DNA of 41,215 nt, taken from positions 1 to 41,215 of IMG/VR virus record IMGVR_UViG_3300007960_000052; one strand, written 5' to 3'. The first letter of the stretch is position 1. The number at the start of each line of letters is the position of its first letter. This DNA is from a virus. Below, in pieces: positions 1 to 4,179 of the stretch. A model generated the notes under the pieces. It ran no database searches. It had not been told where the DNA came from and saw only the letters and a program-made list of their open reading frames with translations. The translations under genes were made by a program, and so were the position numbers.

Positions 1-2
1 AA

Positions 3-467
3 CTTGCCCAAGAGATTATGGATTGTGAAGATGTTAAAGACTTGCGCAAAATGTGTAAGGAGTACGACGAACTTGAATCTTGTCGTAAGGGTATTGGCAT
101 CAAAAAGATTGAAAAACTACGTAACGAAATGCTTGAGGCACTTGGTTACGAGGTTGAAGACTCGACAAAGGAAGCCCCAAAGGGTACGGACAAAAAAGAG
201 AAGGGTACAGGTAACAAAAAGGAAAAAGGTGCCAAGAAAGAGAAGAAAGAGGGAGCTGGAACTACTGAGTACGGACACCGCAAAGGAAGCCAAAGTGGAC
301 AAATTGATGAGGTATTACTTGGTGCCAAGAAAGCCCTTAGCCTGGATGAAATTGCTGAGGAAGTTGGTTGTACTGCCGGAAGGGTTAAGAACCACATAGC
401 CCACCTTGAAAAAAACAAAGACGTTGAATTCAAATTGGTTAACGATAAATACAGAATCGTTAAGTAA
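3..467 (+). CDS. Winged-helix-like protein with a charged linker, 5' end possibly outside the window
   Basis: The frame is open to the left edge. The first ATG is at 18 (149 residues), but in-frame codons upstream (Leu-Ala-Gln-Glu-Ile) show no stop, so the true start may lie outside. There are three parts. The N-terminal helical segment of about 50 residues resembles small SAP/LEM-like modules and ends in LEALGYEVED. A strongly Lys/Glu/Gly-rich linker of about 40 residues is probably disordered. The C-terminal segment of about 55 residues (SLDEIAEEVGCTAGRVKNHI and following) looks like a helix-turn-helix or winged helix. A DNA-binding role is inferred from that segment only. The stop at 465-467 lies one base before the radical SAM start, so the two are probably co-transcribed. 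No specific family was recognised. Confidence 0.6.
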   Translation, partial: LAQEIMDCEDVKDLRKMCKEYDELESCRKGIGIKKIEKLRNEMLEALGYEVEDSTKEAPKGTDKKEKGTGNKKEKGAKKEKKEGAGTTEYGHRKGSQSGQIDEVLLGAKKALSLDEIAEEVGCTAGRVKNHIAHLEKNKDVEFKLVNDKYRIVK

Positions 468-468
468 T

Positions 469-1458
469 ATGAGAAACATCGTTAAAGCGGAAGTGTTGTG
501 GACGCGCAAGTGTCCACTTCACTGCCATTATTGTAGCATGGCTACGCAGGAAGCAAACTCCTATCCAATTGAGTTATGGAAAGAGGGGTTGCTTCAATTG
601 CGCAAATTGGACTGTAAATTTATAGCCATTTACGGTGCCGAACCGACAGCCGACTTCGATAACCTGTGTGAGTTTGTAAAGACCGCTAGCCTTATGGGGT
701 TTGACATGACACTGATTACAAGTGGACAAGGTGGAAACATACCTGAGAAACTTAAACTATTATATGAAGCAGGTTTACGCTCTTTAACTATGTCTTATGA
801 CATTGTACCATTAGACCCCAGTAGTGCTATCAAGAGTAGCAAGGCGCTAAAGACTTTGAATTATTTTGGTAGTTTAGGACCTGTAGATAATTTGGCGATC
901 TGTACCACGTTAACCCGCAAGAACTATACCAAGTTATATGATAGCTTTAAAGTGTTGGCAGAGCTTGGCTATTGGACGTTTTTTGACATTATTCACCACG
1001 ACCGAGGACAAGAGGGCAGCAAAGTAAAAGGACGTGATGAAGAATTAATGTTTACAGAGGATGATATTCTACCCTTAATCACCCAACTGCAACTCCTTAA
1101 AACAAACAGGGACAGACTAAAGATACACGCAAGTGATGGTTTTCTTGATTACCTGTGCAACAACCCTGAACTCTTTTTAACATACGATTGGAACTGCGCT
1201 AACAGTAGAAGTTTCCCAAGTTGGGTGACCATAGATTGTGATGGACAGGTGTACCCATGTGATGATTTCCAACCGAAATCAATTGGTGTACCATTCCACC
1301 AAATAGCAGACCGTTGGGAAACGTTCCAAGACGCATGGCGTACGAAAGTATCAATAGACTGCCCTGGCTGTATATGGAACACCCATATCGATGCCAACCT
1401 TATTAAAGAGGGGGCAGTTAGTATTAACCAATATATCCATAAAGACAATGGCAGATAG
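469..1458 (+). CDS. Radical SAM enzyme with a C-terminal cysteine-rich (SPASM/twitch-like) domain
   Basis: This 329-residue protein starts at ATG 469, just after the preceding stop. Cys15, Cys19 and Cys22 form the CxxxCxxC motif (RKCPLHCHYCSM) that holds the SAM-cleaving 4Fe-4S cluster. A Gly-Ala-Glu-Pro segment near residue 60 fits the radical SAM GGE-type motif. Near the C-terminus a further set of Cys residues (NCANSR, IDCDGQVYPCDD, DCPGCIW) resembles a SPASM or twitch auxiliary-cluster domain. It sits directly before queC and upstream of folE and dpdA, so a role in making or tailoring a 7-deazaguanine base is likely. Canonical QueE (CDG synthase) is only about 210-250 residues and has no such C-terminal Cys set, so this is either a non-orthologous QueE substitute or an additional modifying enzyme. 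The reaction is not known from sequence. It overlaps queC by 11 bases. Confidence 0.8.
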   Translation: MRNIVKAEVLWTRKCPLHCHYCSMATQEANSYPIELWKEGLLQLRKLDCKFIAIYGAEPTADFDNLCEFVKTASLMGFDMTLITSGQGGNIPEKLKLLYEAGLRSLTMSYDIVPLDPSSAIKSSKALKTLNYFGSLGPVDNLAICTTLTRKNYTKLYDSFKVLAELGYWTFFDIIHHDRGQEGSKVKGRDEELMFTEDDILPLITQLQLLKTNRDRLKIHASDGFLDYLCNNPELFLTYDWNCANSRSFPSWVTIDCDGQVYPCDDFQPKSIGVPFHQIADRWETFQDAWRTKVSIDCPGCIWNTHIDANLIKEGAVSINQYIHKDNGR

Positions 1459-2131
1459 AGATAACAGCGTATTGTTGTTTAGTGGTGGGATTGACAGTTT
1501 TGTAGCCTACCATTATTTGAACAAACCGAAAACCGTTTATTTTGACGTGCAGAGTAGGTACACCCAACGGGAACTAGAGGTGGTGAAAAGATTAATACCC
1601 AGTACAATCATTGACCACAGCCTAGATTTTAGTAGCCGTGAGATAGGAGTAAACGCCTATATCCCATTTAGAAACCTTTTACTGGCAGCCCAGGCAGCCA
1701 AGTATGCCGATACTATCTACATAGTAGGTATCAAGGGGGACAACGTCAGTGACAAGAACGAAGAAATCTTTGAAGAGTTCAGTACCCTGTTAACCAAACT
1801 GGAGAATAGACCAATCAAAGTCTTAAGCCCATTTTGGGAAAAAACTAAATCTGAAATCATTAGTTGGTATCTAAACGATCACAAAGGGAATCTTGGAATC
1901 TTGTTGCAAACCATTAGTTGCTACGCGCCAAAGGCTACTGGCTCTTACTGTGGACGATGTCCTAGTTGTTTCCGTAAATGGACTGCTTTAAGGGCTAACG
2001 GGATTAACGTACCATTTTACAACGATGCTCTATTAGATGAGTATTACAAGGCTGCTAAAAAAGGTATTTACATTAAAGAAAGAAACGATGAAATTATCAG
2101 GGAAATCGATGCGTATCGCAGTGGACATTGA
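1448..2131 (+). CDS. queC: QueC-like 7-cyano-7-deazaguanine (preQ0) synthase
   Basis: QueC converts 7-carboxy-7-deazaguanine to preQ0 using ATP and ammonia. The 227-residue length is normal for the family. Residues 12-17 form the PP-loop ATP-binding motif (SGGIDS). The C-terminal zinc site is clear: a Cys in ISCYAP followed by CGRCPSCFRKW gives four ligand cysteines and the trailing Arg typical of QueC. The start at 1448 is the ATG just before the stop of the radical SAM gene (11-base overlap), which places the PP-loop about ten residues from the N-terminus, as usual. The 3' end overlaps the HAD gene by 23 bases. In a phage with a DpdA-like gene, the product is expected to feed DNA modification rather than tRNA queuosine. 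Confidence 0.9.
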   Translation: MADRDNSVLLFSGGIDSFVAYHYLNKPKTVYFDVQSRYTQRELEVVKRLIPSTIIDHSLDFSSREIGVNAYIPFRNLLLAAQAAKYADTIYIVGIKGDNVSDKNEEIFEEFSTLLTKLENRPIKVLSPFWEKTKSEIISWYLNDHKGNLGILLQTISCYAPKATGSYCGRCPSCFRKWTALRANGINVPFYNDALLDEYYKAAKKGIYIKERNDEIIREIDAYRSGH

Positions 2132-2396
2132 TGGTATTTTAACCAATGAAACTGAAGGATACGATTATCAAAACCGCACACCCAACCAAGAGAACATTGA
2201 TACAGTGAACAGGATATATGACCACGGACATATCGTGGTCTTGTTCACCAGTAGATTTGGAGTTGACCTACACATCACAAAAAGGTGGCTGAAGGAACAT
2301 GGTGTACAGTATCATAAGTTGATATTGGATAAACCCCAGTACGATATTTTCGTAGACGATAAAGCGTATAACTCATTTAAAGAATTAGGATTATGA
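2109..2396 (+). CDS. Small capless HAD-superfamily phosphatase-like protein
   Basis: This 95-residue protein has three recognisable HAD motifs: motif I DIDGILTN near the N-terminus (nucleophile Asp and acid/base Asp), motif II LFTSR, and motif IV FVDDKAYNS near the C-terminus. It is short even for capless HAD phosphatases, and a separate motif III Lys is not obvious, although KPQYD just before motif IV may supply it. The chosen ATG (2109) puts motif I at residues 6-13; a longer frame upstream would only duplicate the end of queC. It overlaps queC by 23 bases and the next gene by 4 (ATGA). The substrate is unknown. Its position suggests action on a phosphorylated intermediate or nucleotide of the 7-deazaguanine pathway. 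Confidence 0.75.
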   Translation: MRIAVDIDGILTNETEGYDYQNRTPNQENIDTVNRIYDHGHIVVLFTSRFGVDLHITKRWLKEHGVQYHKLILDKPQYDIFVDDKAYNSFKELGL

Positions 2397-3295
2397 AAAA
2401 AGTATATAATGTGACGCCAGGAGAAATCAATGATTTCTTGGCCGAATTTGATCACGAAGATACTACTGTGTACGGAGTGCCCAACGGGGGACTTATGTTA
2501 GCAGCGTACCTAACTGAAGCCGAAGTGGTATTTACTGTAGAAGATGCCGACATCATATTAGACGACCTGATTGATAGTGGTGTAACTATGGAACGATATA
2601 AGGCTGAATGGCCTGATAAACAGTTTAAAGCTATGTTTGATAAACGTGACGGTCAAGCGGATGCTAATTTTCAAGGACAATGGATTGTGTTTCCTTGGGA
2701 ACGTAGCCACCCAAATGGTGAGAAAACTATTGAGGACAATATCGTACGAATACTCCAGTACATTGGTGAAAAACCTGAACGCGATGGTTTGGTTGGTACA
2801 CCTGACAGGGTGGTTCGTATGTACAGTGAAATCTTCCGTGGATACGATCCTGCACATCGTCCAAAGGTGACCATCTTTAAAAACGGTGCAGACGGTTTGG
2901 ATTACAATCAAATGATAACAGACGAGGGAAGTTTCCACAGCCATTGTGAACATCATATGGTTCCGTTCTTTGGCAAATATTACTTTGCATACATACCCAG
3001 TAGAAAAGGAAACATCTTAGGACTGTCTAAGGTGGCGCGTATTGTTGATTATCATGCGGCTAAGTTACAGATACAGGAACGACTCGGTCACGATATTGTG
3101 GAGGACTTATGGAAAGCCCTGTGTACGGGAGCAGATGAACCGTTGGGGATGGCGTTAATGATGCGTGCGGAACATCTGTGTAAAACGATGCGGGGTGTTA
3201 AAAAGAAAGGACAAGCCACTACCACCACATTGAAAGGCGTGTTCTTAACTGAGCCAAAAGTCAAACAAGAATTTCTAAACAGTTGTAAGATATGA
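2393..3295 (+). CDS. folE: Fusion of a phosphoribosyltransferase-like domain and GTP cyclohydrolase I (FolE)
   Basis: This 300-residue protein has two domains. Residues 1-105 look like a type I phosphoribosyltransferase: VYGVPNGG at 26-33 fits the pyrophosphate loop and DIILDDLIDSGVT at 53-65 fits the PRPP-binding loop, with WIVFPWE near 97-103. Residues 110-300 are FolE, which makes 7,8-dihydroneopterin triphosphate from GTP, the first step of both folate and preQ0 synthesis. Cys185, His187/His188 (SHCEHHMVPFFGK) and Cys263 (HLCKTMRGV) match the zinc and catalytic residues of FolE, and the LSKVARIVDY and QIQERL helices are conserved. The two domains are in one frame with no break. The start overlaps the HAD stop by 4 bases and the stop overlaps dpdA by 4. 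Confidence 0.9.
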   Translation: MKKVYNVTPGEINDFLAEFDHEDTTVYGVPNGGLMLAAYLTEAEVVFTVEDADIILDDLIDSGVTMERYKAEWPDKQFKAMFDKRDGQADANFQGQWIVFPWERSHPNGEKTIEDNIVRILQYIGEKPERDGLVGTPDRVVRMYSEIFRGYDPAHRPKVTIFKNGADGLDYNQMITDEGSFHSHCEHHMVPFFGKYYFAYIPSRKGNILGLSKVARIVDYHAAKLQIQERLGHDIVEDLWKALCTGADEPLGMALMMRAEHLCKTMRGVKKKGQATTTTLKGVFLTEPKVKQEFLNSCKI

Positions 3296-4179
3296 AAATC
3301 TATATTGCAGGTATTCACGGGGTTTATGAGACCAGTCAAATAAACCAGTTACTGACGAACAGTTTGGTGACTTTCTGGGAGAAACCAAAGTTTCACAAAT
3401 GTCACAGGGAACAGGACATCTTCCTAGACTCGGGAGCCTTTAGTGCTTGGAGTCGTAAAAAATCAATTGACTTGAAGGATTACATCCGTTACGTAAAAGA
3501 GAATGAGGAGTGGATTACTGTGTACGCCAACCTTGATGTCATTGGTAGTGCCAGGAGGTCTTGGCGTAACCAAATGAAAATGGAAAAGGCTGGGTTAAAA
3601 CCTATGCCCGTATTTCACACAGAGGACGAGCCTTACTGGTTAGAAAAGTGCGTCAATGAGTACGAGATGTTTTGTATTGGAGGTATGGCTAAAGGGTTTA
3701 GCAGAAAGGAGCGACAGAGCTTCCTAGATCGTTCATTTGAACTGGTTGAGAAGTTAGGTGGATTGGACCGTTGTAAGATACACGGATTTGGAATGACCAG
3801 CTTTGATTTGATGTGGAGATATCCTTGGTATAGTGTGGACAGTACCACGGCAGTGCTTGTCAGTGGTATGGGTGGGATAATTGTTCCACCACGTAGAAAC
3901 GGTGAATGGCGTTATGACTTACCACCACACGGAATATCAATAAGTGAAAAGTCACCCAGCGCCAAAAAGTTGAATGAACATTACACAACTGTTCCCCCAA
4001 CTGTTAAACAAATGATTGACGATTACCTAACTGAAAACGAGTACAGCTTTAAAGACTGTGCCGAGAGTTACCTACCAAGGAGGGAATTGAATATTATTTA
4101 TTACAATACCCTGCAAGATGCAATAACTGAAAAAGGTTCCAACTGGGACGATACTAACAAACTAATTCCATTGCTATGA
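3292..4179 (+). CDS. dpdA: DpdA-like DNA 7-deazaguanine transglycosylase (TGT-related)
   Basis: This is a 295-residue TGT-fold protein of the phage DpdA type, which is thought to swap guanine in DNA for a 7-deazaguanine. FLDSGAFSAWS at 44-54, with Asp46 as the likely catalytic Asp, is the hallmark segment. It is followed by YANLDVIG, PVFHTEDEPYWL, an IGGMA segment, and GFGMTSFDLMWRYPWYSVDST, all in the order seen in TGT/DpdA barrels. In many family members the last motif continues VDSTSW; here it is VDSTTA. The bacterial tRNA-TGT zinc motif CxCxxC is not visible, which fits DpdA rather than Tgt. Overlaps of 4 bases with folE and with the clamp gene imply translational coupling. Alternative: an uncharacterised TGT-like phage protein with another nucleic acid target. 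Confidence 0.8.
   Translation: MKIYIAGIHGVYETSQINQLLTNSLVTFWEKPKFHKCHREQDIFLDSGAFSAWSRKKSIDLKDYIRYVKENEEWITVYANLDVIGSARRSWRNQMKMEKAGLKPMPVFHTEDEPYWLEKCVNEYEMFCIGGMAKGFSRKERQSFLDRSFELVEKLGGLDRCKIHGFGMTSFDLMWRYPWYSVDSTTAVLVSGMGGIIVPPRRNGEWRYDLPPHGISISEKSPSAKKLNEHYTTVPPTVKQMIDDYLTENEYSFKDCAESYLPRRELNIIYYNTLQDAITEKGSNWDDTNKLIPLL

Follow-up and report, generated by a model that had tools for sequence, protein, structure and literature searches.

A radical SAM protein with a twitch-like cysteine motif as a candidate tailoring enzyme of viral 7-deazaguanine DNA modification

The 41,215-base virus record analysed here (hereafter the window) encodes a radical SAM protein, which we call rSAM (window 469-1458), beside an unusual QueC, a small HAD phosphatase and the DNA guanine transglycosylase DpdA. 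We put at roughly 0.55 the probability that rSAM is an additional tailoring enzyme of phage 7-deazaguanine DNA modification, which would act together with QueC and HAD and whose product DpdA would insert; that it serves this modification in some manner, either by tailoring the base or by preparing a donor for it, we regard as likely. Because rSAM recurs beside one set of partner genes in dozens of uncultivated phages, it probably helps to build a new DNA base. The initial annotation had suggested, as one of two readings, a novel decoration step on a 7-deazaguanine. Gene context bears this out, with QueC and HAD as constant partners and DpdA in 30 of 34 rSAM records, and the chemistry part of the suggestion does not share in this support.

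Table 1 Features at the 5' end of the window, with the evidence for each
Feature	Positions	Strand	Basis
Acidic repeat-containing protein, 3' part, HTH-like end; gene runs off the window	18..467	+	ORF; sister contig
Twitch-type radical SAM protein (rSAM), 329 aa	469..1458	+	Pfam, alignment, predicted fold, start and stop read
CxxxCxxC radical SAM cluster motif, C15/C19/C22	511..534	+	Alignment, 46-member count
Auxiliary-cluster cysteines C243/C264/C298/C301, C-x15-G-x4-C ... CxxC	1195..1371	+	Alignment; SPASM-like, below Pfam cut-off
Diverged QueC; ORF open from 1391, ATG 1448 fits the family start	1448..2131	+	PF06508, 69 bits
Small HAD phosphatase, AfhF-like; ORF open from 2037	2109..2396	+	phrog_1238, 1.7e-25
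FolE (GTP cyclohydrolase I) with N-terminal phosphoribosyltransferase-like domain	2393..3295	+	PF01227, 3.6e-51; phrog_8995, 1.6e-6; PRPP-loop-like motif
DpdA, DNA guanine transglycosylase	3292..4179	+	phrog_887, 1.8e-52

The rSAM frame has its start at ATG 469 and its stop, TAG, at 1456-1458 (329 codons). There is an alternative in-frame TTG at 406, but the aligned relatives start at or near Met 469 instead. The motif, the Pfam Radical_SAM score (43.3 bits, E 5.7e-11, cut-off 29.5) and the predicted fold all place the protein in the radical SAM superfamily, and the CxxxCxxC core that had been claimed from the sequence, spaced C15-x3-C19-x2-C22, is upheld by the Pfam match and by its conservation. 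The SPASM/twitch motif is C-x(9-15)-G-x4-C followed by CxxC, and rSAM carries C243-x15-G259-x4-C264 and C298-x2-C301. The C-terminal Cys set described in the initial annotation as typical of SPASM/twitch clusters is therefore present as a cysteine pattern, but the Pfam SPASM model matched weakly (17.5 bits, under the cut-off of 21.5), so that the label "twitch-like" is taken from motif and fold.

In an alignment of 19 sequences (the window's rSAM and 18 relatives), C243, C264, C298 and C301 were invariant and 46 columns in total were invariant, all seven cluster cysteines among them, the segment C298-D308 being invariant by selection because the relatives were retrieved with that motif. The count was extended to 46 members, 12 of which came from a scan independent of the C-terminal motif. 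C15/C19/C22 were kept in 44/44 members covering those positions and C243/C264 in 45/45, and the last cysteine pair, seen in 45 members, was CxxC in 40, CxC in four and a single Cys in one (L077).

In Pfam and NCBIfam, no model of a characterised family matched rSAM above its cut-off, the general radical SAM model being the one exception. The best NCBIfam model was PqqE (TIGR02109, 51 bits versus a cut-off of 381.35); the BlsE model TIGR04466 gave 22.8 bits (cut-off 400) and the best QueE model, TIGR04349, 17.6 bits (cut-off 300). With scores so far under the cut-offs, PqqE or another known SPASM family was rejected as an assignment. QueE is a short protein without an auxiliary cluster, and the 329 aa of rSAM with their four extra conserved cysteines lack such compactness. 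The earlier estimate of about 100 residues more than QueE was roughly right, the difference being 67 residues against the same-phage QueE ORF (262 aa) and 108 against the QueE profile (221 positions). Although both are radical SAM enzymes of the same gene cluster, rSAM differs from QueE also by the four-cysteine site and by having GAEP in place of GGEP.

That this phage has a QueE of its own is seen in a sister contig of 56,828 bases from the viral contig scan, which encodes an identical rSAM (100%). It differs from the window at two positions in the first 11,455 bases (99.98% identical there) and at three over the last 3,354 bases, and it extends upstream of the window, where QueD (PF01242, E 7.1e-32) and QueE are encoded just upstream of the acidic repeat protein gene. 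The QueE models aligned with this 262-aa QueE over most of their length, with 61.5 bits for TIGR04322, under the cut-off of 200. Between the end of its gene and window base 1 lie about 455 nt. The window starts directly after a coding repeat, SEEPAEEA, suggesting that the assembly likely broke there, and a QueE profile search inside the window returned the rSAM gene as the sole match (E 7e-6). The placing of rSAM "in the position of queE" was thus an effect of the window edge, and rSAM is additional to QueE. The acidic repeat protein at whose coding repeat the window contig breaks (window 1-467; 7241-7999 in L001) adjoins the cluster, and relatives were found by profile in 23 of the 34 loci.

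The same holds for most of the family. With a QueE profile built from 19 of the same 34 records, a separate QueE was found in 27 of the 34 rSAM records, and one more contained a QueE fragment at the contig end. Among the six with no separate QueE detected, G002, G022, G026 and G027 are short records or have rSAM at the contig end, and two are not explained by truncation: G007 (a 31.9 kb record whose locus has about 9.9 kb of upstream sequence) and G031 (24.6 kb, rSAM lying near the downstream end). When six of the separate phage QueEs were tested, the QueE models were their best matches (61.5-174 bits, all below the cut-offs). The sister-contig QueD and QueE together with the separate QueEs speak against rSAM as a replacement of QueE, and they lend no support to the unrelated CDG synthase that the initial annotation had offered as its first reading. 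The adjacency of a radical SAM enzyme to queC and the six records lacking a separate QueE would favour a second, unrelated CDG synthase or a QueE substitute, but given the 27 records, the contig-end fragment and the very low QueE scores of rSAM itself we consider such a role extremely improbable. In five records (G005, G008, G020, G025 and G034), extra frames matched the QueE profile with E 1e-7 to 1e-11; as they are distinct from both QueE and rSAM, further radical SAM genes may exist there, the MAG included.

The family was collected by scanning viral contigs with a degenerate search pattern built on the C-terminal motif CxGCxWNTHxD. This gave 22 contigs, all encoding relatives, of which 20 had the radical SAM motif and two were fragments in the stretch retrieved. 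After motif and profile scans the family comprised 33 loci in viral contigs and one in a MAG contig, with 29 distinct members among the 34 loci at 90% identity; every record is of metagenomic origin and many of them are fragmentary. The MAG contig, assigned to Sulfuricurvum, was recovered from a set of 84,980 species genomes and has homologues of QueD, QueE, FolE, QueC, HAD, DpdA and the clamp, and with this set of modification genes it may be phage DNA. Within the sensitivity of plain tblastn, the 50,697 phage records gave no full-length relative; with an E limit of 10, seven cultured-phage records were matched, none over the full length. Plasmid matches were, where annotated, PqqE (among the best 40 of 68 records). 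A match in an Acinetobacter "phage" was rejected as part of a bacterial-looking pqqBCDE operon. This record and another, L011/L012, filed as Acinetobacter phage MD-2021a and Staphylococcus phage SA 1306 Kay, look bacterial in content, with pqqBCDE and a canonical queC with an adjoining QueE-like gene.

In the window the genes are tightly packed. QueC, if it starts at ATG 1448, begins within the last codons of the rSAM gene and overlaps it by 11 nt, so the position directly 5' of queC given in the initial annotation holds, and the HAD start lies inside the 3' end of queC. DpdA is clustered with preQ0-pathway genes, in the window itself and, for QueD and QueE, in the sister contig. By tblastn the window's DpdA matched 201 phage records, those listed being named queuine tRNA-ribosyltransferase or unnamed. 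The Pfam TGT model gave no phage matches even though phrog_887 did, so this model misses these DpdAs.

Profile searches across the 34 rSAM loci detected QueC in 33, HAD in 32, DpdA in 30, FolE in 28 and QueD in 23. The one locus without QueC, L060, belongs to a contig that stops inside the rSAM gene, and the other locus without HAD, L063, to a contig that stops in QueC. None of the 34 loci is shown to lack queC, and conservation of the gene in phages without queC and dpdA, which would have counted against the initial annotation, was not seen in them. DpdA was also sought by profile in the whole records; of the four without it, L060 and L063 are cut on that side and G030 and G033 are long records with no profile match. 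In 24 of 33 loci the interval from the rSAM stop to the QueC start falls within -68 to +85 nt, in eight it is 194 to 1152 nt, and in L056 QueC lies upstream. A single ORF encodes both QueC and HAD in eight of the 34 loci. Some clusters contain methyltransferase-like genes (six candidates, five with Pfam methyltransferase matches and three of these above cut-off).

Several individual loci showed unusual arrangements. In L056 (10890-13176), the first rSAM has downstream of it a Gat-QueC and another radical SAM gene, a diverged one, which looks like a duplication of the QueC-rSAM pair. A gut phage scaffold (L009, 8635-10876) encodes, as judged by eye, a DpdA with an apparent intein-like insertion in one long ORF. 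In L062 (8624-9955), an ORF of 444 aa lies upstream of rSAM; it has a DSGG motif resembling that of transglycosylases and no Pfam match. The record gives no ordinary DpdA match, and this ORF is possibly another type of DpdA. The N-terminal phosphoribosyltransferase-like domain of FolE, with its PRPP-loop-like motif, was seen in seven of 28 FolEs, namely those of the window (L035), L039, L041, L049, L050, L057 and L066, where L050 and L057 are near-duplicates and six of the calls were made by the motif and that for L039 by eye. This domain might recycle the guanine released by DpdA or feed a pentose-phosphate step.

To compare how the partners diverged, pairwise distances were correlated with those of rSAM. 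The correlation was highest for QueC (0.77), followed by DpdA (0.68), QueD (0.60), RFC (0.58), the clamp (0.55), HAD (0.41), FolE (0.40), DNA polymerase (0.38) and QueE (0.35), with locus sets that differ between proteins and pairs that are not independent. The replication proteins thus span 0.38-0.58, and QueD also exceeds this range.

As a control for a HAD linkage that might have arisen from starting at rSAM, a scan was started from HAD. It gave 62 loci, of which 50 had strong HAD matches (12 weak ones were dropped). A real QueC was present in 43 of these 50, the seven without being L090, L102, L103, L111, L115, L116 and L117. rSAM was found in 37 of the 43 loci with HAD and QueC. The scan is only partly independent, since 25 of these 37 lie on contigs known from the preceding scans and rSAM loci had supplied the HAD profile. 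Among the new contigs, rSAM was present in 12 of 18, six close and six diverged (L076, L077, L085, L092, L110 and L113, E 1e-24 to 1e-38). Of the six HAD and QueC loci without rSAM, L072 and L075 have little upstream sequence, whereas L068, L086, L108 and L109 are not so limited; a search of the whole records of all six, with a query that gave matches elsewhere and with no control in these records, found no rSAM.

The QueC partner itself is unusual. The window's QueC keeps the SGGxDS and PxRN motifs and the zinc-site cysteines of canonical QueC but lacks the tyrosine of the YPDC motif (Tyr131). This Tyr was absent in all 28 rSAM-locus QueCs compared (five near-duplicates left out), in which DKN or DKT is usually found, whereas the canonical QueC used as a yardstick has YPDC. 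The Y35 position was lost in the main clade and kept in six diverged members. In E. coli QueC, Y131A is described as inactive and Y131F as partly active (Libby et al., PMC13329287). The loss of the YPDC Tyr also occurs in phages without rSAM and is thus not specific to the rSAM partnership: neither HAD nor rSAM was found in the whole records of four phages with a QueC lacking this Tyr, one of which is only 19 kb long, and the positive controls were detected.

The Gat-QueC phages provide a further comparison. The cluster of phage 9g type (FolE, QueD, QueE, Gat-QueC and DpdA), as described in PMC6884629, has the same precursor and insertion genes, and the order of DpdA followed by the clamp and DNA polymerase is also seen in JG012 and R7M. 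Unlike the rSAM loci, three cultured Gat-QueC phages gave neither HAD nor an rSAM-family enzyme in whole-record searches whose positive controls were detected, and all three Gat-QueCs keep AYPDN, hence the YPD. There are therefore QueCs without HAD, and pairs of QueC and HAD without rSAM; in the 34 loci, however, rSAM was never seen without QueC and HAD where the contig allows. This nested presence, seen in few cases, hints that rSAM acts last.

The predicted model of HAD (pLDDT 87.3, pTM 0.69) resembled AfhF (PDB 9iqw; Z 13.1, rmsd 1.6 over 78 residues, 31% identity), with a near tie for the uncharacterised Vibrio protein 1xpj (Z 12.3). The AfhF profile also matched HAD with E 4.8e-17, so the two are alike in profile and fold but differ in genomic setting. 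By its PDB title, from which the activity is taken, AfhF is the D-arabinose 1,5-diphosphate phosphatase of phage HY126. HAD matches were obtained in 404 cultured-phage records, and in the three regions viewed the HAD relative has genes for a nucleotidyltransferase, kinase, epimerase or aldolase nearby.

The AlphaFold model of rSAM was confident (pLDDT 92.9, pTM 0.91). Its best PDB match by VIA-align was BlsE (7vob; Z 25.3, rmsd 3.4, 300 residues), for which we know of no deazaguanine link, followed by SuiB, SkfB and viperin-like enzymes (Z 20.4-20.8), PqqE (19.8), MoaA (18.6) and BtrN (14.5). BtrN, SkfB, SuiB, PqqE and anSME share a similar domain plan with rSAM (Z 14.5-20.8), and their substrates are an aminocyclitol or peptides. 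Foldseek gave another order, in which PqqE led by E-value and BlsE came fourth. According to PMC3715490, BlsE is a radical decarboxylase acting on the sugar of cytosylglucuronic acid, its iron content after reconstitution suggests two clusters, and a C-terminal pattern C317xC319xxC322 is proposed for it. BlsE is therefore like rSAM in a fold matched over nearly the full model length and in its probable two clusters, and unlike it in the C-terminal pattern; at 15% identity the predicted fold match is no demonstration of function. A fold search among viral proteins returned, at rank 8 with TM 0.61, A0A8S5QS09 (571 aa, named 7-cyano-7-deazaguanine synthase), which by this model comparison may be an rSAM-QueC fusion.

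Gene neighbourhood alone cannot separate an action of rSAM on the base from one on a donor or on a protein. One alternative is that rSAM prepares the side-chain donor, which might be an amine or a phosphorylated sugar, ahead of its attachment and never touches the 7-deazaguanine. The resemblance of HAD to AfhF, the sugar-type genes near its cultured-phage relatives (three regions of 404 records), the sugar moiety on which BlsE works, and a glycosyltransferase gene between rSAM and QueC in L064 would all fit a donor pathway. However, no nucleotidyltransferase or ligase was recognised in the conserved ORF clusters, a minority of which were put through the family search, and it is QueC to which rSAM is bound in position and whose distances it tracks more closely than those of HAD (0.77 versus 0.41). 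We judge this alternative unlikely.

Another alternative is that rSAM is a SPASM/twitch maturase of a peptide or protein which, with a Cap9/QatC-like QueC, would yield a deazaguanine-protein conjugate, for example in counter-defence. In CBASS, proteins of the QueC family reportedly attach a 7-deazaguanine to protein, and SPASM maturases, PqqE among them, supply the best family models for rSAM, albeit far under cut-off. Several observations speak against it: rSAM is made up of the core and the twitch, which leaves no space for an additional domain; no ORF of at least 60 aa is widely common beside it; the only small cluster (cluster 14, about 80 aa, six loci) follows DpdA in the loci displayed; and DpdA accompanies rSAM in most records. 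A peptide substrate was looked for as a widely common small gene (at least 60 aa) adjoining rSAM and was rejected, and the maturase role appears very unlikely to us.

Returning to rSAM as a tailoring enzyme of the base, a proposed route can be outlined. FolE, QueD and the phage's own QueE would make CDG (7-carboxy-7-deazaguanine), a known pathway predicted here from the genes. The diverged QueC, judging from its lost substrate-site residues, might then activate the C7 carboxylate with ATP and form an amide or a larger conjugate, instead of or beyond preQ0. CmoY, as described in PMC12783734, joins 5-carboxymethylcytosine to glycine and is an amide ligase extending a carboxylate on a DNA base; an analogous extension on CDG would suit the altered QueC. 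The HAD phosphatase, by its similarity to AfhF and its fusion with QueC, would strip a phosphate from the intermediate or the side chain. From the side chain now exposed, rSAM would abstract a hydrogen atom, its second cluster being a putative electron relay, and the outcome, as far as the fold suggests, would be an oxidation, a decarboxylation or a rearrangement of the side chain. Finally, DpdA would swap a guanine in DNA for the finished product. The order of QueC, HAD and rSAM in this outline is taken from the nested gene presence only.

A more specific picture, which we offer as a quite unlikely one, is a new hypermodified guanine in which a 7-deazaguanine carries a sugar-like, perhaps pentose, side chain, made by QueC, the AfhF-like phosphatase, the BlsE-like rSAM and DpdA and sometimes methylated. 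QueC would then be the conjugating ligase, HAD would unmask the sugar and rSAM would remodel it. If true, radical chemistry would here extend to the side chain of a DNA base, going beyond the ring-making radical step of QueE.

In the open-licence literature we found no paper linking a SPASM/twitch radical SAM enzyme with 7-deazaguanine DNA, and neither a BlsE crystal-structure paper nor an AfhF paper was found there. Of the eight 7-deazaguanine derivatives known to us, none is known to require a radical SAM enzyme after QueE. Where radical SAM enzymes come up in the available text of PMC11888242 and PMC11945000, QueE is the only one spoken of. A passage of PMC9301287 describes viral genes annotated ahbD, the name of a SPASM radical SAM enzyme, as abundant beside queC and queD with a speculative function, and some of them may be the rSAM family under another name.

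Phage 7-deazaguanine modifications are described as protecting DNA from restriction enzymes (PMC6884629). A radical SAM family nearly confined to viral contigs, with a close linkage to QueC, HAD and DpdA, predicts a new DNA base and a new radical reaction. The family would be a ready marker for the predicted base in metagenomes, with QueC, HAD and rSAM as a three-gene set.
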